A DNA stretch of 64,000 bases from assembly GCA_963931925.1 (NCBI GenBank), contig OZ007570.1, positions 65,031,370 to 65,095,369 on the forward strand, in the 5' to 3' direction. The DNA comes from Onchidella celtica (lineage: Eukaryota; Mollusca; Gastropoda; Systellommatophora; Onchidiidae). The position numbers and the translations under genes were made by a program. Under the pieces are notes generated by a model. It made no database searches and had not been told where the DNA came from. It saw nothing but the letters and a program-made list of their open reading frames with translations. Positions 1,846 through 64,000 of this stretch are shown piece by piece (the first letter of the stretch is position 1; each line of letters opens with the position of its first letter).

Positions 1846-3070
1846 TGTCACGAGCAGAGTTAGGGTCTTGGGGATGTTACGACTGCACGAGAGGCAGCTA
1901 ACTCACACTCGGACACAACCACACAATAAAAGTATTAAATAACTAGAGCGTATATATGTCAGGCCGGTCAGGCCATAGTTTACATAAATATTAATAACAA
2001 AACAAAAGACAATAGGGGTATATATCCAAACCAAAAAAAACTAATTAATAACTTAATCTATGATATTCATGTAACTATGGAGGTACTGCAATCAATAGCA
2101 AATAGGTATATTATACGAAACTAGATATCAATTTAAAGTGACAGTTGAGTCGCCACTGGCCAGTCGCCAGGCAAACTCTCCATAAATCATATGGGCTTAA
2201 ATGTTAGGAGAGCCCAGTACGTTCAAAGCCTACAGAAGCACTCTTCGGCTTGTAGGTAATTTAAGCAGTTGCCAAAAGACTATATTTTATGCACAATCAC
2301 TATTCAATTCATCAACAATGTGCTATATTATTCTAATCATACTATGGCAATAGATCTATGATACAGGACACTCGTGGTCGAGTGCCAGCTGGGGTTTCCT
2401 TAGTCTTTCTATGAGGCTGTAGTTCTCTCTCTATCTCCGATCTCTATTATGCTTCAACAAATAAGATATATTACCATTGCTCACGCCTACTGGTAGGCGC
2501 GAACATCAATATAGCGCAGCGTGGGCTTTCAAAGGTCAGCCCACTCAGACCTTTCTTTCTAGAGCTCAGTCAGTCCGTTAGCAAGGACTTCTTGTCTTCA
2601 AAGCACACAGTTCAGGTACTGGTCAACCGGAGATACTTCACGACACGATGCTTCTGCTCGTCTGTATTCACCAAATCTGAACGTTACACGATGTTATATA
2701 CTATCTAACTACCCAGCGTGCTAGTCCGCTGGCCCAATTAGTTCAGCTATCTCATAGGTCGAAACCTCCCACCATTTTAATTGTAGTAATACGTCTGCAC
2801 TATTCTACCAGCCAGTTAACGTGCAAAAACTTGTCTAGTCATACTTAACAATGTCAACTAGCCCACCTTGTTTCACCCCTACTCCATTACTTATTAATCA
2901 CGAACATTAAAACCCACAAGCGTGAATCTAACAGTTTAACTTTACATTTATTTACTCACCAACTAATTTGGCGAGGACCGTTCAAGGCCACCAGCCAATT
3001 TCTCATGGCCCTGGTAAAACAACAACAACTCACTCTCTGCGTGAGTTTTAACAACATCTGAATCATGACA
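1846..3070 (-). mobile_element. Solo LTR of a Gmr1-like Ty3/gypsy element (copy A)
   Basis: This 1225-bp block starts with TGTCA and ends with TGACA on the plus strand, the usual LTR terminal inverted repeat. It is flanked by a direct 5-bp duplication AACAT (1841-1845 and 3071-3075). It aligns end to end with the LTR at 59438-60680 that belongs to a retrotransposon with recognisable pol, so the family is clear. No internal element sequence remains, so this is a solo LTR left by LTR-LTR recombination. Copies 12827-14070 and 59438-60680 share sequence that differs here, for example around 2075, so this is the more diverged and probably oldest copy. In element orientation it reads on the minus strand. 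Confidence 0.93.
2694..2700 (-). promoter_or_regulatory. TATA box of solo LTR A
   Basis: On the minus strand the sequence reads TATATAA inside the LTR. The same site is TATATAA in the LTR at 59438-60680 and TATAAAA in the LTR at 12827-14070. It probably marks the U3/R junction promoter. Confidence 0.55.
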
Positions 3071-12826: not shown

Positions 12827-14070
12827 TGTCATGATTCAGATGTTGTTAAAACTCACGCAGAGAGTGAGTTGTTGTTGTTTTACCAGGGCCATGAGAAATT
12901 GGCTGGTGGCCTTGAACGGCCCTCGCGAATTATAGTTGGTGAGTAAATAAATGTAAAGTTAAACTGTTAGATGCACGCTTGTCGGTTTTAAGGTTCGTGA
13001 TTAATAAGTAATGGAGTAGGGGTGAAACAAGGTGGGGATAGTTGACATTGTTAAGTATGACTAGACAAGTTTTTGCACGTTAACTGGCTGGTAGAATAGT
13101 GCAGACGTATTACTACAATTAAAATGGTGGGAGGTTTCGACCTATGAGATAGCTGAACTAATTGGGCCAGCGGACTAGCACTGCTGGGTAGCCAGATAGT
13201 ATAAAACATCGTGTAACGTTCAGATTTGGTGAATACAGACGAGCAGAAGCATCGTGTCGTGAAGTATCTCCGGTTGGCCAGTACCTGAACTGTGTGGTTT
13301 GAAGACTAGAAGTCCTTGCTAACGGACTGACTGAGCTCTAGAAAGAAAGGTCTGAGTGGGCTGACCTTTGAAAGCCCACGCTGCGCTATTTTGATGTTCG
13401 CGCCTACCAGTAGGCGTGACCAATGGTAATATATCTTACTTGTTCAAGCATAATAGAAGATCAGAGATAGAGAGAGAACCACAGCCTCATAGGAAGTCTA
13501 AGGAAACCCCAGCTGGCACTCGACGACGAGTGGCCTGTGTTATAGAATTATTTCCATAGTATGATTGAAGTAATATGGCACATTGTTGATGGATTGAATA
13601 ATGATTGTGCATATATATAAATAGTTTTTTTTGCAACTGCGTAATTACCTACAAGCCGAAGTGTGCTTCTGTAGGCTTGGAACGTACTGGGCTCTCCTAA
13701 CATTCAGGCCCATATGATTTAGGGAGAGTTGGCCTTGCGACTGGCCAGTGGCGACTCAACTGTCACATTAAATTGATATCTAGTTTCGTATAATATACCT
13801 ATTTGCTATTGATTGCAGTACATCCAATAAGGAACCATAATTACATGAATATCATAGATTAAGTTAGTAATTAGAATTTATTGCTTTGAATATACCTCTA
13901 TTGTCTTTTGTTTTGTTTATTAATATTTATGTAAAACATGGCCTGACCGGCCTGACATATATAGATCCTCTAGTTGTTTAATACTTTTCTTGTGTGGTTG
14001 TGTCCGAGTGTGAGTTAGCTGCCTCTCGTGCAGCCGAATGCTCCCCAAGACCCTAACTCTGCTCGTGACA
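12827..14070 (+). mobile_element. Solo LTR of a Gmr1-like Ty3/gypsy element (copy B)
   Basis: This 1244-bp block starts TGTCATG and ends GTGACA and is flanked by the 5-bp direct duplication CCCAC (12822-12826 and 14071-14075). It is the reverse orientation of the LTRs at 1846-3070 and 59438-60680 and is very close to the latter; both share the segment with TTCCTTATTGGATGTACTGC or its complement. No internal sequence is attached, so it is a solo LTR. ORFs overlapping it are chance frames. Confidence 0.94.
13200..13206 (+). promoter_or_regulatory. TATA box of solo LTR B
   Basis: TATAAAA lies in the LTR at the position where the two other copies have TATATAA. It is the likely core promoter of the LTR. 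Confidence 0.55.
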
Positions 14071-48268: not shown

Positions 48269-50152
48269 TTACACAATAGTTTCACTATCTGACTTTCCTC
48301 TTTTGGATTTTTCTGCTCTGATGGCCCGCGAGGAAGATGCACTACCAGCCTTCACAGGAACTTGATGATACTGATGCACTGGTACTGTGTACTCAATACC
48401 TTTTCTGTCTCTTTTAGGACCAAAAACTTTTTTGAATTGGGTCCTCCATGAACCCAATGTTTTTGTAGACCAGACCCAAATCCCACTCGTAATGCCCACC
48501 ACAAGTGACATGAATAATTTGAGCATGAAAATCTCGATGTTGGGCGAAGACGTAGATTTGATGGAATACCAGTCTTCCCTGGATGCGTACTCGTAGAGCA
48601 GGCAACCTATCACACATGCTGCCGGAACAGTGTACAATACTGAGAAAATACCGATCCTGACCATGAGAGCTTCAATTTTGTCTTCTCGCCCGGTCATGGC
48701 ACTGCTGCTGCCGGCAGCTTTGTCACAAGCTCGAATGGATTTCTTTACAGATCTGAAGAGCGAGACAAAGCCCGCGACTAGGAACGATGCTCCAAGGATG
48801 AGGTAGACCATTAGAGGAGCAATTGCAAAACCCATGAGGGTTGCTGTGTTTTGACTACCCACATAGCAGATCCCTGTTAGCTCGTCGGCATCAACGTCTC
48901 TCATCACCAAGATAACAATAGTTTTAATAGCCGGGATTGCCCAAGCAGCTAAATGAAAGTAACTGCTGTGAACTTGAATAGCTTCGTGACCCCATTTTAG
49001 TCCAGCCGCCAAAAACCATGTGAATGTGAGAACGACCCACCAAAGTGCACTCGCAGTACCAAAGAAATAAAGAAGCAAAAACACAATTGCACAGTCTGTA
49101 TTCTCCAGGCCCTCTTGTATGAGAATGTTTAGCCCACTTTGACTCTCCGTGTCGCATGCAATATCGTCACGTCCAGCGATTAACCTCACAATGTAAGCAA
49201 TGCTATAGATATTGTAGCACATGGCCATTAAGATTATAGAGCGCTCAGGATATCGGAAACGTTGAGAATCGATCAGGAACGTGAGGATTGTAAAGAGAGT
49301 GGACACAAAGCAGAGACCAGCCCAAACTGCCATCCAGACATTTGCAAAATACTTGTTGTCATCTGTAAACGCATCATTTTGATCACATAATAGCGCACAG
49401 CGGTCGGTTCTGTTAATATACGTGTATTTCATGAAATTTCGATAGCCAAGATACAAACAAGGTTTGTAGTTCTGCTTTGATTGGTCTGGAAACTTCATGT
49501 TGCCTTCAATGTGAGTAGAAATGTCTGGTACATGGATTCCAGGAAAGTATTTCCGTTCAGATTCTGTTGTGTGTTCGGGGCGGTGTGGCCGGTGCTCCGG
49601 GCGGTTTGGTCGTCTAATTGGGGGAACTGTGTGTTTATCTTCTTCGTCGTCTGGGCCTTCCATGCACATATGTTCGTGGTTGTTCTCAACTGGAAACTTG
49701 GAACAATTTAATGCCCCAGGCCACGGATAGCCGAATTCGTGTAAAACAGGTTGGCAACGGTCTCTAACGCTTTCACAAAGCGGTCTGCAGGGACCTATTG
49801 GCGTCATTACTTTCTCTGTGCACATAGGAACGTAAACGGAGCACAAGAAGAACTTTAGCCGACTTGAACAGCCGTACTGAATCAAAGGTGTGAAAGTCTG
49901 TAGCTGCAGAATGGCGTCTTCTTGATCAGGGTGGTCGACTAGATTAGGCATACCCGTAACATTGTATCCCAAACTCTTGCACATTGTAGATCGTATTGGT
50001 TCACATGTCCTCACTGATTCCGTGGCAAGGGCACTACTAAAAGTTATGCAAATGAAAGTCAACAATGTTCGTGCCAAAAGCGACGGACTCTTCACTCTTG
50101 CAGGATATGCCATTTTACTGAATATAAGATCATCAAAGTGATTACTGGCCAT
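48269..50152 (-). CDS. fz4: Frizzled-4-type Wnt receptor
   Basis: A seven-pass plasma-membrane receptor that binds Wnt ligands and signals through Dishevelled. From the ATG at 50152 the protein has 627 residues. A hydrophobic signal segment (about 25-43) is followed by a Frizzled cysteine-rich domain with all ten cysteines (C50 to C163), a Pro/His/Arg-rich linker with PEH repeats (about 180-194), seven membrane segments (about 272-562), the KTxxxW Dishevelled motif (KTLGSW, 564-569) and a C-terminal ETIV, a class I PDZ ligand. The CRD wording ([30 protein letters not shown]) and the PDZ tail fit the Fz4 subfamily better than Fz1/2/7, 5/8 or 9/10. The whole coding region is one exon. A second ATG at 50113, also in good context, would put the signal peptide nearer the N terminus (614 residues). 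The frame stays open upstream to a TTG at 50227 but has no further ATG there. Confidence 0.95.
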
Positions 50153-50204
50153 TTTTACCACTCGGTAAGAACTGTTAAAGCAATAACAATGAAATAATAG
50201 TAGA

Positions 50205-50224
50205 AAAGATGGCAAAGTGAACGA
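50205..50224 (-). promoter_or_regulatory. YY1-like motif near the frizzled start, shared with 53240-53259
   Basis: AAAGATGGCAAAGTGAACGA (plus-strand reading) lies about 55 bp upstream of the first ATG and holds AAGATGGC, the reverse of a YY1-type GCCATCTT core. The identical 20 bp recur at 53240-53259. This is either a start-site element or a local duplication. Confidence 0.4.
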
Positions 50225-50679
50225 CAAACTGAAGCTAACTGCTTGGCTTACACCCTACCGGTGCAGGATTAACAGATTTCATCACGTAATTCCATCACTT
50301 TTGCATTGGTGCCAATAGAGACTTCGAAATATTCCGATCACATTGTCAACAATCCAAACACCAATCATTCAGTGCCCAGTACTGTAAACTGCTTGTAGTT
50401 TATCATTGTTACTTGTTGCTGGCCATAGTCATTCGTCATTACTATGTGAAGAGACTTGATAACTTGAAACACCGTCCACATAATAATATATCCAAAACAA
50501 GTTCAGAAAGTCACTGTAACACGCACCATACCACAGACCTGGTACTTCATGAAAATAACAGTACTATCCCTCTGTGACACAAGCTGCACTCCTGATCCCG
50601 TTCGCTTTGTGCACGGTGAACGTGAAAACTGGTGGCAGTGTTGTGGTTCTCGCGTACAAAACATTCAACCGCTCGCATG

Positions 50680-53908: not shown

Positions 53909-56900
53909 TTAGCGAGTGTTTTCATTCCGCCTCTGTCGTTTTGTCAGGTATGTTTCTTTTGCCTTGAAGTCTATTGCGAGCGTGCCACTGCGCAATTTTT
54001 GTCTCCATCTGCTTCGATCACTTGCAAGGTTCTCCCATTCATTGGGGTCGATGTTGAATGCTTTCATCGTGACCTTGCAAGTGTCTTTGAATCGCAGATG
54101 TGGCCTACCTCTGGGTCGGTTGCCAGTAGCAAGTTCCCCGTAGAGAATTTGTCTGGGGATGCGATCATTTTCCATACGGTGGAGATGTCCAAGCCACCGC
54201 AGTCTTTTTTTGCCTAGGAGAGCCTGAGTTGATGGAATGTTGGCTCGGCTCAGAACTTCGATATTTGAGATCCTGTCTTGCCACTTGATCTTGAGAATTT
54301 TGCGTAGGCAGCGCAGGTGGAAGGAGTTGAGGGATCTTTCATGTTTGGAGTAGGTGGTCCATGTCTCTGAGCCATACAGCAGGGTGCTTAGGACGCAAGT
54401 TTGGTACACGAGTACCTTTGTTTTGATGGTCAGCTTGCTATTGTTCCACACCCTTTTTGAGAGTTTGCCAAAAGCTGTGGCCGCCTTTCCTATTCTGGCA
54501 TTTATTTCAGTTGTTATGTCTGTGCTACCACTGATGGTTGAGCCTAGGTAGCAGAATTTTCCCACTTGCTCCAGAGGAGAGCCATTCAGCATGATTGGGT
54601 TGGAGTTTCTCAAGCCTTGTGTCAAAACTACAGTTTTTGAGACACTGATCTTTAGCATGAATTTGTCACAGGCTTTGGCAAGGCTATTGATGAGAGCCTG
54701 GAGCGTGGTTTCATCGTGGGCCACGATTGCAGCATCATCTGCGAAGAGGAGCTCTTGTAACATAATATGCTCTGTACGAGATTTTGCTTTTAGTCTGGCA
54801 ACATTAAAAATGGAGCCGTCCACTCTGGTGTTAATAAGTACTCCACCTGAACATTGACCAAAGGCATTCTTGAGTAGGGCTGCAAAATATATACCAAATA
54901 AGGTAGGAGCAAGAACACATCCCTGCTTCACACCGCTGTTTACAGCAAATGAATTGGATGTGCAGCCCTCAAAGTTGACACATGCCCTCATGTCAGTGTG
55001 GAAGGATGCAATAAGTTTTAGCAATGTTGGTGGACAGCCTATGGATTTAAGGACTGCATACAGGCCAGATCGGCTTACGGTGTCGAAAGCATTTGTTAGG
55101 TCCACAAAGCATGTTATAAGCGGCCTGTTTTGTTCTTTACATTTTTCTTGGATTTGCCGAAGTGCAAATATCATGTCAATAGTTGATCGTTTGCTTCGAA
55201 AGCCACATTGTGTTTCTGGTAAGACTTTTTCCGCCAGTTGTTGAAGGCGGCAGAGGATGACGCGAGCAAAAGCCTTTCCAGTAATGCTGAGGAGGGATAT
55301 GCCTCGATAGTTGTTGCAGTCGCCTTTGTCTCCTTTGTTCTTGTAAAGTGTGACAATTTTGGCGTCTCTCATATCATGTGGTATCACGCCTTCTTTCCAA
55401 CACTGCAGTAACAGATTATACAGGTGTGGTAATAGTGGGCCTTTTAGGTCTTTTAATACCTCTGCAGGAATGTTGTCACTTCCTGTGGCTTTTCCAGCAG
55501 ACAGGTGGTCGATTGCATTGGAAAGCTCGACTAAGGAAGGTTCAGCGTCAAGTTCGGCCATTATTGGCAGTTTTTGGAGGTGTTCCTCAAAATCTGGTGG
55601 AATATTTTTCTCAGTTGAATACAACAGAGAGTAATGCTCTACCCACCTATTCAGTTGTTCATTTTTATCTGTGATGGGTTCACCATTTACAGACTTAAGT
55701 GGGGCGCTTTTGGTGATGATTGGCCCAAGGGCTACTTTCATCTGACTAAAGGCGGTTTTCATATCTCCCTTTTCATTTGCCTCTTGTATGCTGTTACACA
55801 AGTCTGTCCAGTATTTGTTGGCGCAACGTCTTACCTCCAGCTGAAGTTTAGCTTTTGCATTTTTCAAACAAGTTTTTGTACTCTGATTGCAATTTTTGTT
55901 ATACTCATTGAAAGCAGATTTCTTTTGCTCAATGAGAGGTAGGAGAATTTCGCTGTTCTGGGCTACCCAGTCGTTGTTTGAAACTTTATGCTGTCCAAAA
56001 GACTTGATGGCACAGTCATGAATTTTTGAACTGAGAGTGTTCCATGTTTCATCTACCGAGTCACATTGGGTGACATTATCCATGCTTTCAGCAAATAACT
56101 TTTCAAATGACTTTCTATTTGATTCATCTCTGATTGCTGTTACATTGATCTTAGGGATTGAAGGGGCTTTTGATCTGTATATTTTCTTGGCCGAAATTTT
56201 GATTTTGCTGACTACCAGTGCATGGTCGGTGTCACAGTCAGCACTGTGGAGGGAACGAGTTATTTTTATACAGCCCAAACTCTTCCTCCTTGAGAGAATA
56301 AGATCTAATTGATGCCAATGGCCAGACCTGGGATGGCGCCATGATGTTCTTTGGCATCTCTTAAGGTCAAAGTACGTGTTTGTAACACATAATGAGTTTA
56401 CGGAGCATAGCTCCAGAAGGCGCTGCCTGTTTTCGTTGATGTTGCCAATGCCGAAGTGCCCAATGCACTTTGGCCATGCGGAGTGATCTGCTCCCACTCG
56501 AGCGTTAAAGTCACCCAGAATTAGCAGGCCTTCGGTGAGAGGGATGTTGTGGAGAGTCCTCTGCAATGCCTCGTAGAAAATGTCTTTGGTTTCGTCAGAG
56601 GAGGTAAGTGTTGGGGCATAGACACAGATAATGTTGGTAAAACCAGACCGGGTGTTCAGTCTGAGTGTCATGATGCGTTCTGACACTCCAATTGGAGTTG
56701 CGATCGAATTGATAAGGGAGTTTTTTACGGCGAAGCCCACGCCGTGGATTCTCGGCTGTTCGCTGCTAAGGCCCTGCCAGAAGAAGGTGTAGTTTTCTTC
56801 TTTGACTGACCCGGAGTCGGGAAGTCGAGTTTCTTGAAGGGCAGCGATGTCGATGTTTAGTAGCTGAAGTTCTCGATCAATAATTTGGGATTTCCTGATG

Positions 56901-56944
56901 GAGTCAATATTAGTGAGATCTTGCTGTTGCAAGCCTGGGCGCAT
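53909..56944 (-). CDS. LINE endonuclease-reverse transcriptase polyprotein
   Basis: The enzyme nicks target DNA and copies the element RNA in place. The 1011 residues start with an APE-type endonuclease: QETR (E38), GDFNARVG (D145, N147), QLDLIL (D214) and TDHALV (D240, H241). The reverse transcriptase follows (NNYRGISLLS about 544, CGFRSKRSTIDM about 580, FVDLTNAFD about 613, GVKQGCVLAP about 671, FADD 734-737), then the LLYGSETW module and a basic C terminus. Residues upstream of this ATG still read in frame to 57028 and include TWNVRT, whose Asn is a conserved part of the endonuclease, so the original start lay further upstream; there is no ATG before a TAG at 57029-57031. A TAA at 53909-53911 removes a zinc finger (see 53813-53908). 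RT and endonuclease motifs are otherwise intact. Confidence 0.92.
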   Translation of the reverse strand: MRPGLQQQDLTNIDSIRKSQIIDRELQLLNIDIAALQETRLPDSGSVKEENYTFFWQGLSSEQPRIHGVGFAVKNSLINSIATPIGVSERIMTLRLNTRSGFTNIICVYAPTLTSSDETKDIFYEALQRTLHNIPLTEGLLILGDFNARVGADHSAWPKCIGHFGIGNINENRQRLLELCSVNSLCVTNTYFDLKRCQRTSWRHPRSGHWHQLDLILSRRKSLGCIKITRSLHSADCDTDHALVVSKIKISAKKIYRSKAPSIPKINVTAIRDESNRKSFEKLFAESMDNVTQCDSVDETWNTLSSKIHDCAIKSFGQHKVSNNDWVAQNSEILLPLIEQKKSAFNEYNKNCNQSTKTCLKNAKAKLQLEVRRCANKYWTDLCNSIQEANEKGDMKTAFSQMKVALGPIITKSAPLKSVNGEPITDKNEQLNRWVEHYSLLYSTEKNIPPDFEEHLQKLPIMAELDAEPSLVELSNAIDHLSAGKATGSDNIPAEVLKDLKGPLLPHLYNLLLQCWKEGVIPHDMRDAKIVTLYKNKGDKGDCNNYRGISLLSITGKAFARVILCRLQQLAEKVLPETQCGFRSKRSTIDMIFALRQIQEKCKEQNRPLITCFVDLTNAFDTVSRSGLYAVLKSIGCPPTLLKLIASFHTDMRACVNFEGCTSNSFAVNSGVKQGCVLAPTLFGIYFAALLKNAFGQCSGGVLINTRVDGSIFNVARLKAKSRTEHIMLQELLFADDAAIVAHDETTLQALINSLAKACDKFMLKISVSKTVVLTQGLRNSNPIMLNGSPLEQVGKFCYLGSTISGSTDITTEINARIGKAATAFGKLSKRVWNNSKLTIKTKVLVYQTCVLSTLLYGSETWTTYSKHERSLNSFHLRCLRKILKIKWQDRISNIEVLSRANIPSTQALLGKKRLRWLGHLHRMENDRIPRQILYGELATGNRPRGRPHLRFKDTCKVTMKAFNIDPNEWENLASDRSRWRQKLRSGTLAIDFKAKETYLTKRQRRNENTR

Positions 56945-57028
56945 TGTTCTGACGTTCCAGGTACCAAGTTTTAGTATTTTTCTGTTTTTGCCAGGTGCAC
57001 ACTTTACGTCAGCTTTTTGACTTTTGGT

Positions 57029-59144: not shown

Positions 59145-59437
59145 CTGCAGGTCATAAAACAAAAAGAAAGCAAAGACTGTCAAATTATGCTCTCCTTATT
59201 ACATACCGTACTTCTGCATACCTAACAGATGACTACCAAGAGCTGTGACTCTGCTTTATCCATTAGTCTCAATAAAAATTATTTTGATGGATTATTCAAC
59301 ATCAACCAATGTTAGGCAGTTCACATGTGGAAAGATTCTTATTATAGCACAAGAAGTATTCTACGCAATGGAAATGTTTTATTCTTCTGTTACCATTCTT
59401 TCCAAATATTATACTAGTTACTATCCTGAAACCCACT

Positions 59438-60680
59438 TGTCACGAGCAGAGTTAGGGTCTTGGGGAGCATTCGACTGCACGAGAGGCAGCTAACTCACAC
59501 TCGGACACAACCACACAAGAAAAGTATTAAACAACTAGAGTATATATATATGTCAGGCCGGTCAGGCCATGTTTTACATAAATATTAATAAACAAAACAA
59601 AAGACAATAGAGGTATATTCAAAGCAATAAATTCTAATTACTAACTTAATATATGATATTTCATGTAATTATGGTTCCTTATTGGATGTACTGCAATCAA
59701 TAGCAAATAGGTATATTATACGAAACTAGATATCAATTTAAAGTGACAGTTGAGTCGCCACTGGCCAGTCGCCAGGCAAACTCTCCCTAAATCATATGGG
59801 CTTGAATGTTAGGAGAGCCCAGTACGTTCCAAGCCTACAGAAGCACACTTCGGCTTGTAGGTAATTACGCAGTTGCAAAAAACTATTTATATATATGCAC
59901 AATCATTATTCAATTCATCAACAATGTGCCATATTACTTCAATCATACTATGGAAATAATTCTATAACACAGGCCACTCGTCGTCGAGTGCCAGCTGGGG
60001 TTTCCTTAGACTTCCTATGAGGCTGTGGTTCTCTCTCTATCTCTGATCTTCTATTATGCTTGAACAAGTAAGATATATTACCATTGGTCACGCCTACTGG
60101 TAGGCGCGAACATCAAAATAGCGCAGCGTGGGCTTTCAAAGGTCAGCCCACTCAGACCTTTCTTTCTAGAGCTCAGTCAGTCCGTTAGCAAGGACTTCTA
60201 GTCTTCAAACCACACAGTTCAGGTACTGGCCAACCGGATATACTTCACGACACGATGCTTCTGCTCGTCTGTATTCACCAAATCTGAACGTTACACGATG
60301 TTATATACTATCTGGCTACCCAGCAGTGCTAGTCCGCTGGCCCAATTAGTTCAGCTATCTCATAGGTCGAAACCTCCCACCATTTTAATTGTAGTAATAC
60401 GTCTGCACTATTCTACCAGCCAGTTAACGTGCAAAAACTTGTCTAGTCATGCTTAACAATGTCAACTATCCCCACCTTGTTTCACCCCTACTCCATTACT
60501 TATTAATCACGAACATTAAAACCGACAAGCGTGCATCTAACAGTTTAACTTTACATTTATTTACTCACCAACTATAATTCGCGAGGGCCGTTCAAGGCCA
60601 CCAGCCAATTTCTCATGGCCCTGGTAAAACAACAACAACTCACTCTCTGCGTGAGTTTTAACAACATCTGAATCATGACA
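59438..60680 (-). mobile_element. 3' LTR of the Gmr1-like element (copy C)
   Basis: A 1243-bp LTR with TGTCA...TGACA ends, attached to internal sequence at 60681. It is nearly the same as the solo LTR at 12827-14070 and clearly related to that at 1846-3070. Stems conserved in all three copies are described in the findings. Confidence 0.94.
60301..60307 (-). promoter_or_regulatory. TATA box of LTR C
   Basis: TATATAA on the minus strand at the position conserved in the other two LTRs, the likely core promoter of the element. Confidence 0.55.
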
Positions 60681-60694
60681 CATCCCCCACCCCA
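60681..60694 (-). other. Polypurine tract
   Basis: On the minus strand TGGGGTGGGGGATG directly precedes the 3' LTR. This is where plus-strand DNA synthesis is normally primed in LTR retrotransposons, and it fixes the orientation of the element. Confidence 0.85.
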
Positions 60695-61288
60695 GTTAAA
60701 ATTTGCAATTTTAACGATATAAATGATTATCGTAAGGGGAAGGCATGAGTCGAGAAATTGCTCGATAGGTGAACTTAACTAGGTAATCACGAAGACTACT
60801 ACAAAAGTTGAAAAAACCCTACAGGACGGGTATCCTTGATGGACAAAACTTCATGAAAATCTTAAGGCTCCGTCCAAAAGTATATATCTCTCTGAGGATT
60901 AAATCTTACCTCTAAATACGTAGACATTAACAATCATAACTCGAAAATTTTTGAGTACAACATTGATCCTGTGCGAATGTCATCAGGAATGCATACATAC
61001 AATGAATAATACTCAAGAAAAGATAACTATAGTAGCATCGATGGCATTAGTGGATCTGGACTCCTGGTCTGCCATGACTTCTCGTCCTCGACCCTGGGCA
61101 ACAACGTCTGGTGTGGCCAAAATACGGGTCGACGTCAGTAAAATAGCTGTTGGAACAAAGGAAAGCACAGGGGTAGGTGAAAAGTGTTCACAATGGGTGA
61201 ACAATATGTGATACCGTCCCTCGGTCTCTGAATGAGGTGTCAATCCCATCCAACGCCAATACATATGACAGACTAAAATACAACAAGA
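60695..61288 (-). other. Element region between RNase H and the 3' LTR
   Basis: About 600 bp with no recognised domain. An ATG-initiated 83-codon frame (61013-61264) and an overlapping frame (61188-61382) with one hydrophobic stretch (ITVTLILLYFSLSYVLAL) are present. Neither resembles a known family, and both may be chance or decayed. Confidence 0.5.
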
Positions 61289-63334
61289 TTAAGGTAACCG
61301 TGATAATAGGTCGGCATGGACATTGTCTCCACCAGGAATGGCCTTTATAATGAAGCGATATTCCTGAAGGGCCAGACTCCATCTGGTCAAACGAGCGTTC
61401 TTGGCTCGGTTCGATTTTAAAAATAACAACGGTTTATGGTCTGTCTCGATGACGAATTCCGTCATAAGTAGGTAGCGGGAAAACGCGTCTACGGCGTATA
61501 CAATCGCCAGGCACTCCCGCTCTATGATAGCGTATCTCTGTTCTCTCGGAAGTAATTTCCGGCTAGCGTACATACACGGGCGCAATAAGCCATCTCTTTC
61601 CTGAAGCAAAACAGCTCCAATTCCCTGGTCCGACGCGTCAGTGCGGACGGTGAAGGTGTGCCTAATATTTGATAGGATAAGCAGCGGCGAACTGGAAAAC
61701 AGTTGCTGCACTGTCGCGAGCGCGGTGGCGCACTGCGTAGTCCAGATAATTTTATTGGGTCGGTCTTTTCTTGTAAGATCGGATAACGGGGCCGTAAGGG
61801 CCGAAAAATTAGGAACGAATTTCCGATAATAGCTTAAAAAGCCTAACAGGCTACGAACCTGCTTCTTAGTATGAGGAGCCTGGAGTTTTAAAATCTTACT
61901 TATTTTATTGTCGTCCGGTGTTTGGATGCCTTTGGCGATAGTATGTCCTAGAAAGTTAATCTGCATATAACCCAGGAAGACTTTGCTAGGCTTAGCTGTA
62001 AGCCCGGCATCTCGAAGTTTACTAAGCACTTGACGAAGTGCTTCTAAGTGGCCTTTCCAATCCGTATGGAAAGCGCAAATGTCAAAGTAGCTTAGGACGT
62101 ATGGTGTCTGCTGCAATAGGATGTTCATCGTCCTCGCAAATGTCGCTGGTGCTGTTACGAGACCGAATGGCATGAACCTCCATTGCATGAGACCCATAGG
62201 GGTCTGAAACGCTGTGTACTGTTTACTGGCCTCTTCCATTGGGATTTGCCAGTAGCCTTTAGCTAAATCTATTTTCGAAAATACGGACGACTCAGCCAAT
62301 CGCGCAAATAGCTCTTCCTGATTCGGGATAGGTTCAGCATCGTAAATGGTTAGAGCGTTAAGCTTCCTGTAATCGATACAAAACCTAACGGAACCGTCTG
62401 TTTTCTTTACTAGTACAATCGGCGAGCAGTAAGGGCTCGTCGAGCGCTCAGTGACTCCTAAGCTGAGCATCTTTTCCACCTCGGACTGTATGGTGTCGTG
62501 CGCGTGCAGCGGGCGCGGGTAGGGTTTAACAAACACGGGTACGTCCGAGTGCAACCGGATGACGTGTTGAACTAAGGATGTTTTACCCGGCAAATCAGTG
62601 AATAGTGGCGCAAACTCCCCAACAAGATCCATTATGTCCTGTGTCTTACTTTGATCCAGCTGTGGATTGATATTAACGGAAGTCGCGTCCTCTGTGGCTT
62701 GTAAGGGCAGGAGCGATCTAGTCATAGGTAATGGCTCCCGGTCGTTGTCATCGATAGTGACCATCGCTGCGTTTGCTTGGGCCACAACATGGCAAGAATG
62801 ATCGTGATGACCTTGATCATCGGTAAAATACTTTTTCAACATGTTTATGTGGTAAACCTTATCGTTACCACGGATGGTAATGAGATAATTAACTCTCGAG
62901 AGTCGCTTCTTAACTAGAAAGGGGCCTTTCCAAGTGAGGAGTAGCTTGTTGTTCGTTTCTGGTAACAGCACCAATGCCCGATCTCCGACTGACAGGGTTC
63001 TTAACCGACTACCCTGATCGCGATATCCTATAAATGACCTGGTCCGTACGCATGCAAATTGTCGAGCCAGGTCGCATGCATTAACTATTCTATGTCGGAG
63101 ATCGACGATGTACTGATACGCGGATCGCGTATCAGGAACGTCGGTATCAGAACCGGCGTATAAATCGCGTAAAATGGCCATCGGGCCACGTGGTTTACGA
63201 CCGTATAAAAGTTCAAACGGGGAAAAACCCGTTGTCGCATTTGGGAGTTCCCTATATGCGAACAAGATGGCCGGAAGTCGACGGTCCCAGTCACCAGGTC
63301 TATTGGCTGAAACGCGTGCCAGCATAGCTTTCAT
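61289..63334 (-). CDS. Gmr1-like pol: integrase C terminus, reverse transcriptase, RNase H
   Basis: Residues about 1-175 are the end of the integrase, with ELLYGRKPRGP (41-51) and the GPF module (TWKGPF, 134-139). Reverse transcriptase spans about 255-430: SPIVLVKKTDGSVRFCIDYRK, then KIDLAKGYWQI with catalytic D356, then MPFGL (388-392). The usual YxDD box reads YFDI (416-419), one Asp codon short, so this RT is probably inactive. RNase H spans about 555-680 with D566, E607, D632 and D675 all present. The ORF follows an in-frame TGA (63344) after the integrase core, and the ATG at 63334 is probably not a natural start. The order integrase, RT, RNase H is copia-like although the protein is gypsy-like. 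Confidence 0.92.
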   Translation of the reverse strand: MKAMLARVSANRPGDWDRRLPAILFAYRELPNATTGFSPFELLYGRKPRGPMAILRDLYAGSDTDVPDTRSAYQYIVDLRHRIVNACDLARQFACVRTRSFIGYRDQGSRLRTLSVGDRALVLLPETNNKLLLTWKGPFLVKKRLSRVNYLITIRGNDKVYHINMLKKYFTDDQGHHDHSCHVVAQANAAMVTIDDNDREPLPMTRSLLPLQATEDATSVNINPQLDQSKTQDIMDLVGEFAPLFTDLPGKTSLVQHVIRLHSDVPVFVKPYPRPLHAHDTIQSEVEKMLSLGVTERSTSPYCSPIVLVKKTDGSVRFCIDYRKLNALTIYDAEPIPNQEELFARLAESSVFSKIDLAKGYWQIPMEEASKQYTAFQTPMGLMQWRFMPFGLVTAPATFARTMNILLQQTPYVLSYFDICAFHTDWKGHLEALRQVLSKLRDAGLTAKPSKVFLGYMQINFLGHTIAKGIQTPDDNKISKILKLQAPHTKKQVRSLLGFLSYYRKFVPNFSALTAPLSDLTRKDRPNKIIWTTQCATALATVQQLFSSSPLLILSNIRHTFTVRTDASDQGIGAVLLQERDGLLRPCMYASRKLLPREQRYAIIERECLAIVYAVDAFSRYLLMTEFVIETDHKPLLFLKSNRAKNARLTRWSLALQEYRFIIKAIPGGDNVHADLLSRLP

Positions 63335-63343
63335 GGTGGCATT

Positions 63344-64000
63344 TCAGCGCTCGCAACAGCCATTGGACTGTGGATGGTATGGTGACGTAAGTTTCTGCCT
63401 AATGCCCGTGAGTTCCAGTACTTTCCTGAAAAGGTCGGAGGTGAATTGCGGACCTCTATCGGATAATAATTCGGACGGGAATCCGACGCGCGTGAATATG
63501 GTGACCAATGCCTCGGCGACGTGATCGGCCGATATTTCTTTTAACGGGATTGCCTCAGGCCAACGGGTGGCATAATCGATTACTGATAGAATAAACCGAT
63601 GGCCTCTATCCGACTTCGGTAATGGCCCGACGATGTCAACGGCAACTCGCTGAAATGGAGTGGAAACCGGCGGCATCTCTTGTATAGGTGCCCGCGAAGT
63701 TTTTCCTTTGGGGGTTCTTTTCTGGCATGTATCGCAACGCGACACATAGCTATTTATGTCACCGTAAACCCCGGGCCAAAAAAACTGAGACAGGACTCTC
63801 GATTTTGTTCTCGCTTTGCCCTGGTGGCCCGACAATGGCGTGTCGTGAGCGAGGCGGGTGATGTCTCGGCGAAATGATCTTGGTATGACCAATTGCAAAA
63901 TAGTTTCGCGCTTTCCCCGAAAAACGCGATATAGGAGGTCGTCTTTCAGGCAGAACCTGGTTGTATCCGGGCTGTCCGGATGAATCTTAGCAAAGAGGGG
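63344..64000 (-). CDS. Gmr1-like pol: integrase zinc finger and catalytic core (partial)
   Basis: The frame is open from the window edge to a TGA at 63344. It contains an HHCC zinc-binding domain (LAHD, GHQG, CDTCQK) and an RNase-H-fold integrase core with the DD35E triad: VDIVGP, LSDRGPQF and, 35 residues after the second Asp, the Glu of NGCCER. The protein joins the cDNA ends to the target DNA. The TGA comes right after that Glu, with the frame then continuing into the next ORF, so it is a nonsense change in one original pol frame. The 5' part is outside the window. Confidence 0.9.
   Translation of the reverse strand, partial: PLFAKIHPDSPDTTRFCLKDDLLYRVFRGKRETILQLVIPRSFRRDITRLAHDTPLSGHQGKARTKSRVLSQFFWPGVYGDINSYVSRCDTCQKRTPKGKTSRAPIQEMPPVSTPFQRVAVDIVGPLPKSDRGHRFILSVIDYATRWPEAIPLKEISADHVAEALVTIFTRVGFPSELLSDRGPQFTSDLFRKVLELTGIRQKLTSPYHPQSNGCCER

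Follow-up and report, generated by a model that had tools for sequence, protein, structure and literature searches.

The element at the end of the window is very probably a defective member of a Ty3/gypsy LTR family that was active recently and is present in many copies, whose polyprotein has the order protease-integrase-reverse transcriptase (RT)-RNase H and which is of the Gmr1 kind. The window is the whole 64,000-nucleotide stretch analysed here, which corresponds to C4:65031370-65095369 in the host's own genome (G000; 43 contigs and 1,140,862,475 bases), and that genome was searched for relatives of the element.

An integrase-first polyprotein at the end of the window

The minus strand carries, in this order, an integrase (INT) with zinc finger, DD35E core and probable GPF-type tail, an RT and an RNase H. 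The features of the polyprotein are as follows.

63344-64000, minus strand: frame with the integrase zinc finger and catalytic core, 218 aa, open past the window edge
63344-63346, minus strand: TGA that breaks the frame inside the integrase
61289-63343, minus strand: 684-aa frame with the C-terminal part of the integrase, RT and RNase H; stop codon TAA
63710-63886, minus strand: integrase zinc-binding domain, HHCC (Pfam Integrase_H2C2, 70.5 bits)
63371-63658, minus strand: integrase catalytic core, DD35E (Pfam rve, 52.7 bits)
62831-62926, minus strand: integrase C-terminal GPF-type module (Integrase_p58_C, 26.9 bits against a cut-off of 27)
61937-62410, minus strand: reverse transcriptase domain (Pfam RVT_1, 96.2 bits)
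62078-62089, minus strand: RT active-site motif YFD-I, with one Asp fewer than in Ty3
61358-61744, minus strand: RNase H domain (Pfam RT_RNaseH_2, 100.4 bits; RT_RNaseH, 118.7 bits)

The order of integrase, RT and RNase H, which the original prediction had read from the letters, was confirmed by these Pfam domains. The prediction had also described a single frame; its domains are present as described, but the frame is not continuous, and 63344-64000 and 61289-63343 are one and the same reading frame divided by a single TGA inside the integrase. The 684-codon part is far beyond chance, because the longest frame among 500 first-order Markov sequences was 262 codons. Integrase residues H52, H59, C89 and C92 are present, as is the D-58-D-35-E spacing. 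By sequence, the best PDB match of the RT piece is Ty3, and that of the INT piece is foamy-virus integrase, with Ty3 next. Hence the element combines Ty3/gypsy traits (an RVT_1-type RT with RT_RNaseH, and an integrase with H2C2 and rve), and the usual Ty3/gypsy order of RT-RNase H-INT is absent from it.

Long terminal repeats, flanks and gag side of the element

Extension past position 64000, which had been proposed as a check, recovered the arrangement LTR-gag-protease-like motif-INT-RT-RNase H-LTR. The window itself contains the 3' end of the element and two solo LTRs of the same family.

59438-60680, minus strand: 3' LTR, 1243 nt, TGTCATGA...TCGTGACA, with identical ends in two further copies in the window
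59433-59437, minus strand: target-site duplication AGTGG on the 3' side; the 5' LTR, beyond the window edge, has AGTGG before it as well
60681-60697, minus strand: polypurine-tract-like stretch AACTGGGGTGGGGGATG, adjoining the 3' LTR
12827-14070, plus strand: solo LTR with target-site duplication CCCAC on both sides; K2P distance 0.0105 from the 3' LTR
1846-3070, minus strand: solo LTR with target-site duplication ATGTT on both sides; K2P distance 0.0526 from the 3' LTR

The 5' LTR lies at window-equivalent positions 66740-67828 and lacks about the final 152 bases of the LTR; the two LTRs of the window copy show 8 differences in 1,088 sites. A perfect 5-bp AGTGG duplication encloses the entire element, so that both marks of an LTR retrotransposon, two LTRs and a target-site duplication, are present. 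The polypurine-like stretch also stands before the 3' LTR in seven other copies, with one base different in one of them.

Beyond position 64000 the frame runs upstream to window-equivalent position 65788 and takes in a capsid region, a CCHC knuckle and a DSG motif, and gag through INT is one frame beyond the window edge. The DSG motif, read by eye, marks a putative protease, for which there were no Pfam protease matches. In the gag of the window family, SCAN matches at 26.2 bits (E 6.9e-6; Pfam cut-off 27), Retrotrans_gag at 22.6 bits (cut-off 24.1) and zf-CCHC at 21.1 bits (cut-off 20.8); the gag part has no PDB match by sequence at E 0.01.

Copies whose frame is intact carry gag and pol in a single stretch of about 1,500 codons, for a polyprotein that is presumably cut by its own protease. 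RT would then copy the RNA inside particles, integrase would insert the DNA with a 5-bp stagger, and solo LTRs would arise by recombination between LTRs. The window copy is probably defective and no longer able to yield a working polyprotein, because it contains the TGA and a damaged RT motif.

Domain order across copies of the family and in other gypsy loci

A search of the genome with the INT piece found at least 150 places at 97-100% identity (13,666 candidates; window copy included). Among the 150 matches listed, the surrounding frame has 1,400 codons or more in 86, and in 78 it measures at least 1,480 codons from stop to stop. Domain order was checked in the 30 copies most like the window INT, a non-random sample cut at 1,500 bases per side. 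RT is downstream of INT in 29 of these copies and upstream in none, and one copy has no RT; in 7 of the 30, INT and RT are read in one frame that stays open as far as the RT match extends. By the same method, RT is upstream of INT in all 18 other gypsy loci of the same genome, eight of which (L005-L012) look like one family, while in three others (L048-L050) the match covered just a part of RT-RNase H. The standard order, with RT upstream of INT, is likewise seen in the outside loci L001-L003 and L004; in L002, however, the INT match is no longer than 55 aa, and another RT match follows downstream. Plasmid record NZ_CP065944.1, with RT and INT matches 13 kb apart, was kept outside the order controls. 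We conclude that the integrase-first order is a real trait of the family and no local shuffling.

SCAN-bearing relatives and phylogenetic trees

A SCAN search of the genome found at least 150 places (9,579 candidates), and all 150 listed are above the cut-off: 112 match profile positions 1-88, 35 match positions 2-89, and 3 match others. Frames of at least 1,480 codons contain 27 of the 35 listed places of the 2-89 type. SCAN matches were absent from 14 control genomes, of which the six named ones are prokaryotes and have little bearing on animals.

Eight SCAN loci (L083-L090) were taken with their 3' sides for domain reading. Three of them (L083, L084 and L086) form a second integrase-first family, with SCAN gag, INT and RT-RNase H in a single frame; its INT is 44% and its RT 46% identical to that of the window element, and its SCAN match of 43.3 bits is well above the cut-off of 27. 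L088 represents a further lineage, with an RT that is 56% identical to the window RT and a broken frame. In L087 (C9:1907302-1912802), also integrase-first, INT and then RT are on one strand and the SCAN hit is on the other; that hit is listed in a 2,124-codon frame, and the examined stretch has no long frame after SCAN.

In an RT tree of 16 sequences, built without near-duplicates and without the partial RTs of L048-L050, the window family, L083, L087 and L088 split from 11 standard-order sequences with a UFBoot support of 100. Likewise, 10 standard-order sequences split off in an INT tree of 18 sequences with a support of 81. A smaller earlier tree without L083, L087 and L088 placed the window family on a separate branch, and the RT of the window family is 26-38% identical to each standard-order sequence. 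Because the integrase-first lineages group apart from the standard-order sequences in these trees, domain order behaves, within what was sampled, as a single inherited trait. Besides the window family, two or more of the lineages sampled here have the integrase-first order.

An independent switch to the integrase-first order, convergent with Gmr1 instead of inherited with it, seems improbable to us. It gains what room it has from trees that contain no Gmr1 reference, but in those trees the sampled integrase-first lineages of the genome stand on one side and the standard-order sequences on the other, and their gags share a similarity to SCAN, a domain that the available text of two publications describes as a derivative of Gmr1-like gag (PMC3424704, PMC4592553). 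Membership of the window family in Gmr1 is supported beyond domain order by gag, at the level of sequence similarity: its gag has a weak SCAN-like match, the second integrase-first family scores well above the SCAN cut-off, and reviews derive SCAN from the gag of Gmr1-like elements. This region would link the gag of the window family to the vertebrate SCAN domain. A SCAN-type gag is also present in an RT-less family (see below), and hence is not tied to the integrase-first order alone.

Copy number, age and tandem arrays

The dating sample consisted of ten copies with 1,513-codon open frames, a choice that favours young copies; three of them were set aside, as one of their LTR ends was truncated or could not be placed clearly. 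In the seven datable copies, the LTR pairs differ by 1, 0, 0, 1, 0, 0 and 0 bases of about 1,225, one pair also has an indel, and perfect 5-bp target-site duplications are present at all seven. The copies selected for intact frames are very young. Their LTRs are 6-7% divergent from the window 3' LTR and roughly 3% divergent from the solo LTR at 1846-3070, which places the window copy in another subfamily. In this genome, an integrase-first gypsy lineage that is abundant and very recently active exists beside families of standard order.

Apparent tandem arrays of the window family lie at C4:60439103-60462274 and C3:62527442-62543267, with pairs on C1, C2, C5 and C9, and the INT hits in them recur at a constant step, of exactly 7,506 bp over four units or of 7,586 bp over three. 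They are apparently units sharing LTRs, or an assembly artefact.

The original prediction had named a local rearrangement in this copy as the outcome that would overturn it. We give hardly any credence to the reading that such a rearrangement, or nested or tandem elements, placed the integrase of one element before the RT of another. Tandem arrays of the family do exist, such as that on C4 where INT hits are spaced by exactly 7,506 bp, and the window copy is damaged; however, the C-terminus of INT and the RT share one uninterrupted 684-codon frame, AGTGG flanks the whole element, and RT follows INT in 29 of the 30 family copies sampled. Nor is there a realistic chance that the window element is a Ty1/copia element, whose domain order it matches according to the available text of PMC6238403: this identity is refuted by the gypsy-type RT and integrase models, since the RT matches RVT_1 and Ty3, H2C2 and rve are found in the integrase together with a probable GPF-type tail, the Pfam matches of the element include no copia-type model, and the best PDB chain is Ty3.

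A relative without RT that keeps integrase

Among the eight SCAN loci read for domains, L085, L089 and L090 each have a single frame, 878-894 aa long when counted from SCAN to its stop codon, that contains SCAN, H2C2, rve and p58_C, with a DTG motif, read by eye, as putative protease. None of these three, which are all of the examined 3' sides of the 1-88 type, matched an RT or RNase H model. The loci of this RT-less family in G000 are:

L085, on C4
L089, on C13
L090, on C11
L091, on C2, frame broken

A remnant of RNase H, its last 28 residues, follows the stop in L089 and L091, as found by comparison with the RT query, and a string search found the same remnant in L085 and L090. L085, L089 and L090 are about 96-97% alike; the likeness stops at ...TCGTGACA, and the flanks beyond differ. 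The LTR of the family is about 1.19-1.21 kb long, starts with TGTCACGA (TATCACGA in L085) and is preceded by a purine tract. The bases after the 5' LTR in L076 and L077 are TGGGGGCTCGTCCGGGAT, which we take to resemble a tRNA-Pro primer site.

A 301-base stretch spanning the deletion scar was matched end-to-end in 40 of 40 scored places at 96-100% identity (246 candidates), and five of the 40 lie in one tandem array on C2. The scar is 2.5-4.1 kb downstream of SCAN, on the same strand, at 21 of 22 SCAN places picked near scar matches. Frames of more than 1,200 codons occur in 3 of the 112 listed SCAN rows of the 1-88 type, and the two that were examined, L085 and L090, lack RT; an RT-bearing parent of the RT-less family was not found among the listed SCAN loci.

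L091 (C2:41449532-41464074) is a tandem array of the RT-less family, with SCAN hits 4,757-4,758 bp apart; the overlapping parts of two units are 99.9% alike, and the frame is broken inside the integrase. This C2 array with its 4,758-bp period implies that duplication also adds RT-less copies. In L085 (C4:3070423-3074900), the SCAN hit lies in a 1,836-codon frame that ends 894 codons after SCAN, and some 940 codons stand upstream of SCAN, compared to about 230 in L091.

The simplest reading of these sequences would be one founding deletion, followed by spread through retrotransposition with RT from elsewhere. Because RT-RNase H ends the polyprotein of integrase-first elements, one deletion could remove it and leave the rest in frame. 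We lean slightly towards the view that the integrase-first order yields a distinct non-autonomous LTR type, in which the terminal RT-RNase H was lost by one deletion, and gag, protease and integrase stay in frame; such a family presumably multiplied by using the RT of other elements. A relative that lacks RT and keeps integrase may surprise specialists, and would be a natural test of which enzymes LTR elements can borrow and which they keep.

Other searches and window content

Scans of viral_contigs with each ORF, a two-row alignment and the LTR word found no relative. A search of genome_contigs found two gypsy loci, whose bins carry bacterial and archaeal names. The RT search found three records among plasmids and none among phages, and the INT search found 13 plasmid records, several of which are annotated as IS3 transposases. 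Gypsy-type RT and integrase in the standard order occur in L003 (NZ_CP087956.1, filed as a Wolbachia plasmid) and L004 (NZ_CP065945.1, filed as a Bacillus plasmid); this gypsy-type sequence is probably eukaryotic DNA.

ARAGORN and Rfam (at gathering scores) found nothing in the window. Two further open frames were noted:

48272-50254: single open frame of the Frizzled family, 661 aa, with Frizzled-4 as the closest PDB chain
53912-57028: LINE-type frame, 1,039 aa, with endonuclease and RT

The Frizzled-4-like gene and the LINE fit an animal host; that this animal may be a mollusc was the impression of the original prediction.

Comparison with Gmr1 and other published elements

The original paper on the Gmr1 clade of Ty3/gypsy is reportedly Goodwin and Poulter 2002, and Emerson and Thomas 2011 is said to be the other original paper, for SCAN and Gmr1-like gag. 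The match to Gmr1 that the original prediction had drawn, from gypsy-type enzymes in a copia-like order, was supported by 29 of 30 copies, by RT and INT lineages that stand apart from the standard-order sequences sampled, and by the SCAN-like gag.

In the available text of the published accounts, integrase comes before RT in Gmr1 elements (PMC6238403, PMC3587641), the Gmr1 clade is the exception to the Ty3/gypsy order RT-RNase H-INT, and the order with INT before RT is that of Ty1/copia (PMC6238403). The SCAN domain, in turn, is derived there from the gag of Gmr1-like elements (PMC3424704, PMC4592553). Within the open literature, main texts and in part only, we found no report of Gmr1 in any mollusc. 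A mollusc survey sorted 21 gypsy clades by RT/RNase H, and these MolGy clades are likewise gypsy families, with Gmr1 not named among the mollusc clades in the portion of the text covered (PMC6238403). If the host is a mollusc, the window family could fall under a MolGy name, as MolGy is described in that portion without domain order (PMC6238403).

The window family resembles the Gmr1 clade in its integrase upstream of RT and its gypsy-type enzymes, and probably in its capsid region, whose SCAN match is just below the cut-off. Fish Gmr elements, as given in the accessible part of PMC11117352, have a single gag-pol frame of 1506-1634 aa, to which the approximately 1,500 codons of the window family are similar; in contrast, the LTR is about 1.23 kb in the window family compared to 337-518 bp in the fish elements (PMC11117352), and the hosts are different. 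Among protostomes, the parts of the reports at hand describe Gmr1-like elements of decapods, called there the first in protostomes (PMC3587641), and assign the annelid element Lamellibrachia LGF3 to the Gmr1 clade (PMC8220671); both are likened to the window family by description only. An annelid survey, in its available text, counts Gmr1 among five clades found in several phyla (PMC8556966). Thus, Gmr1-like elements outside deuterostomes are already in print, and the window family very probably adds another to a known clade.
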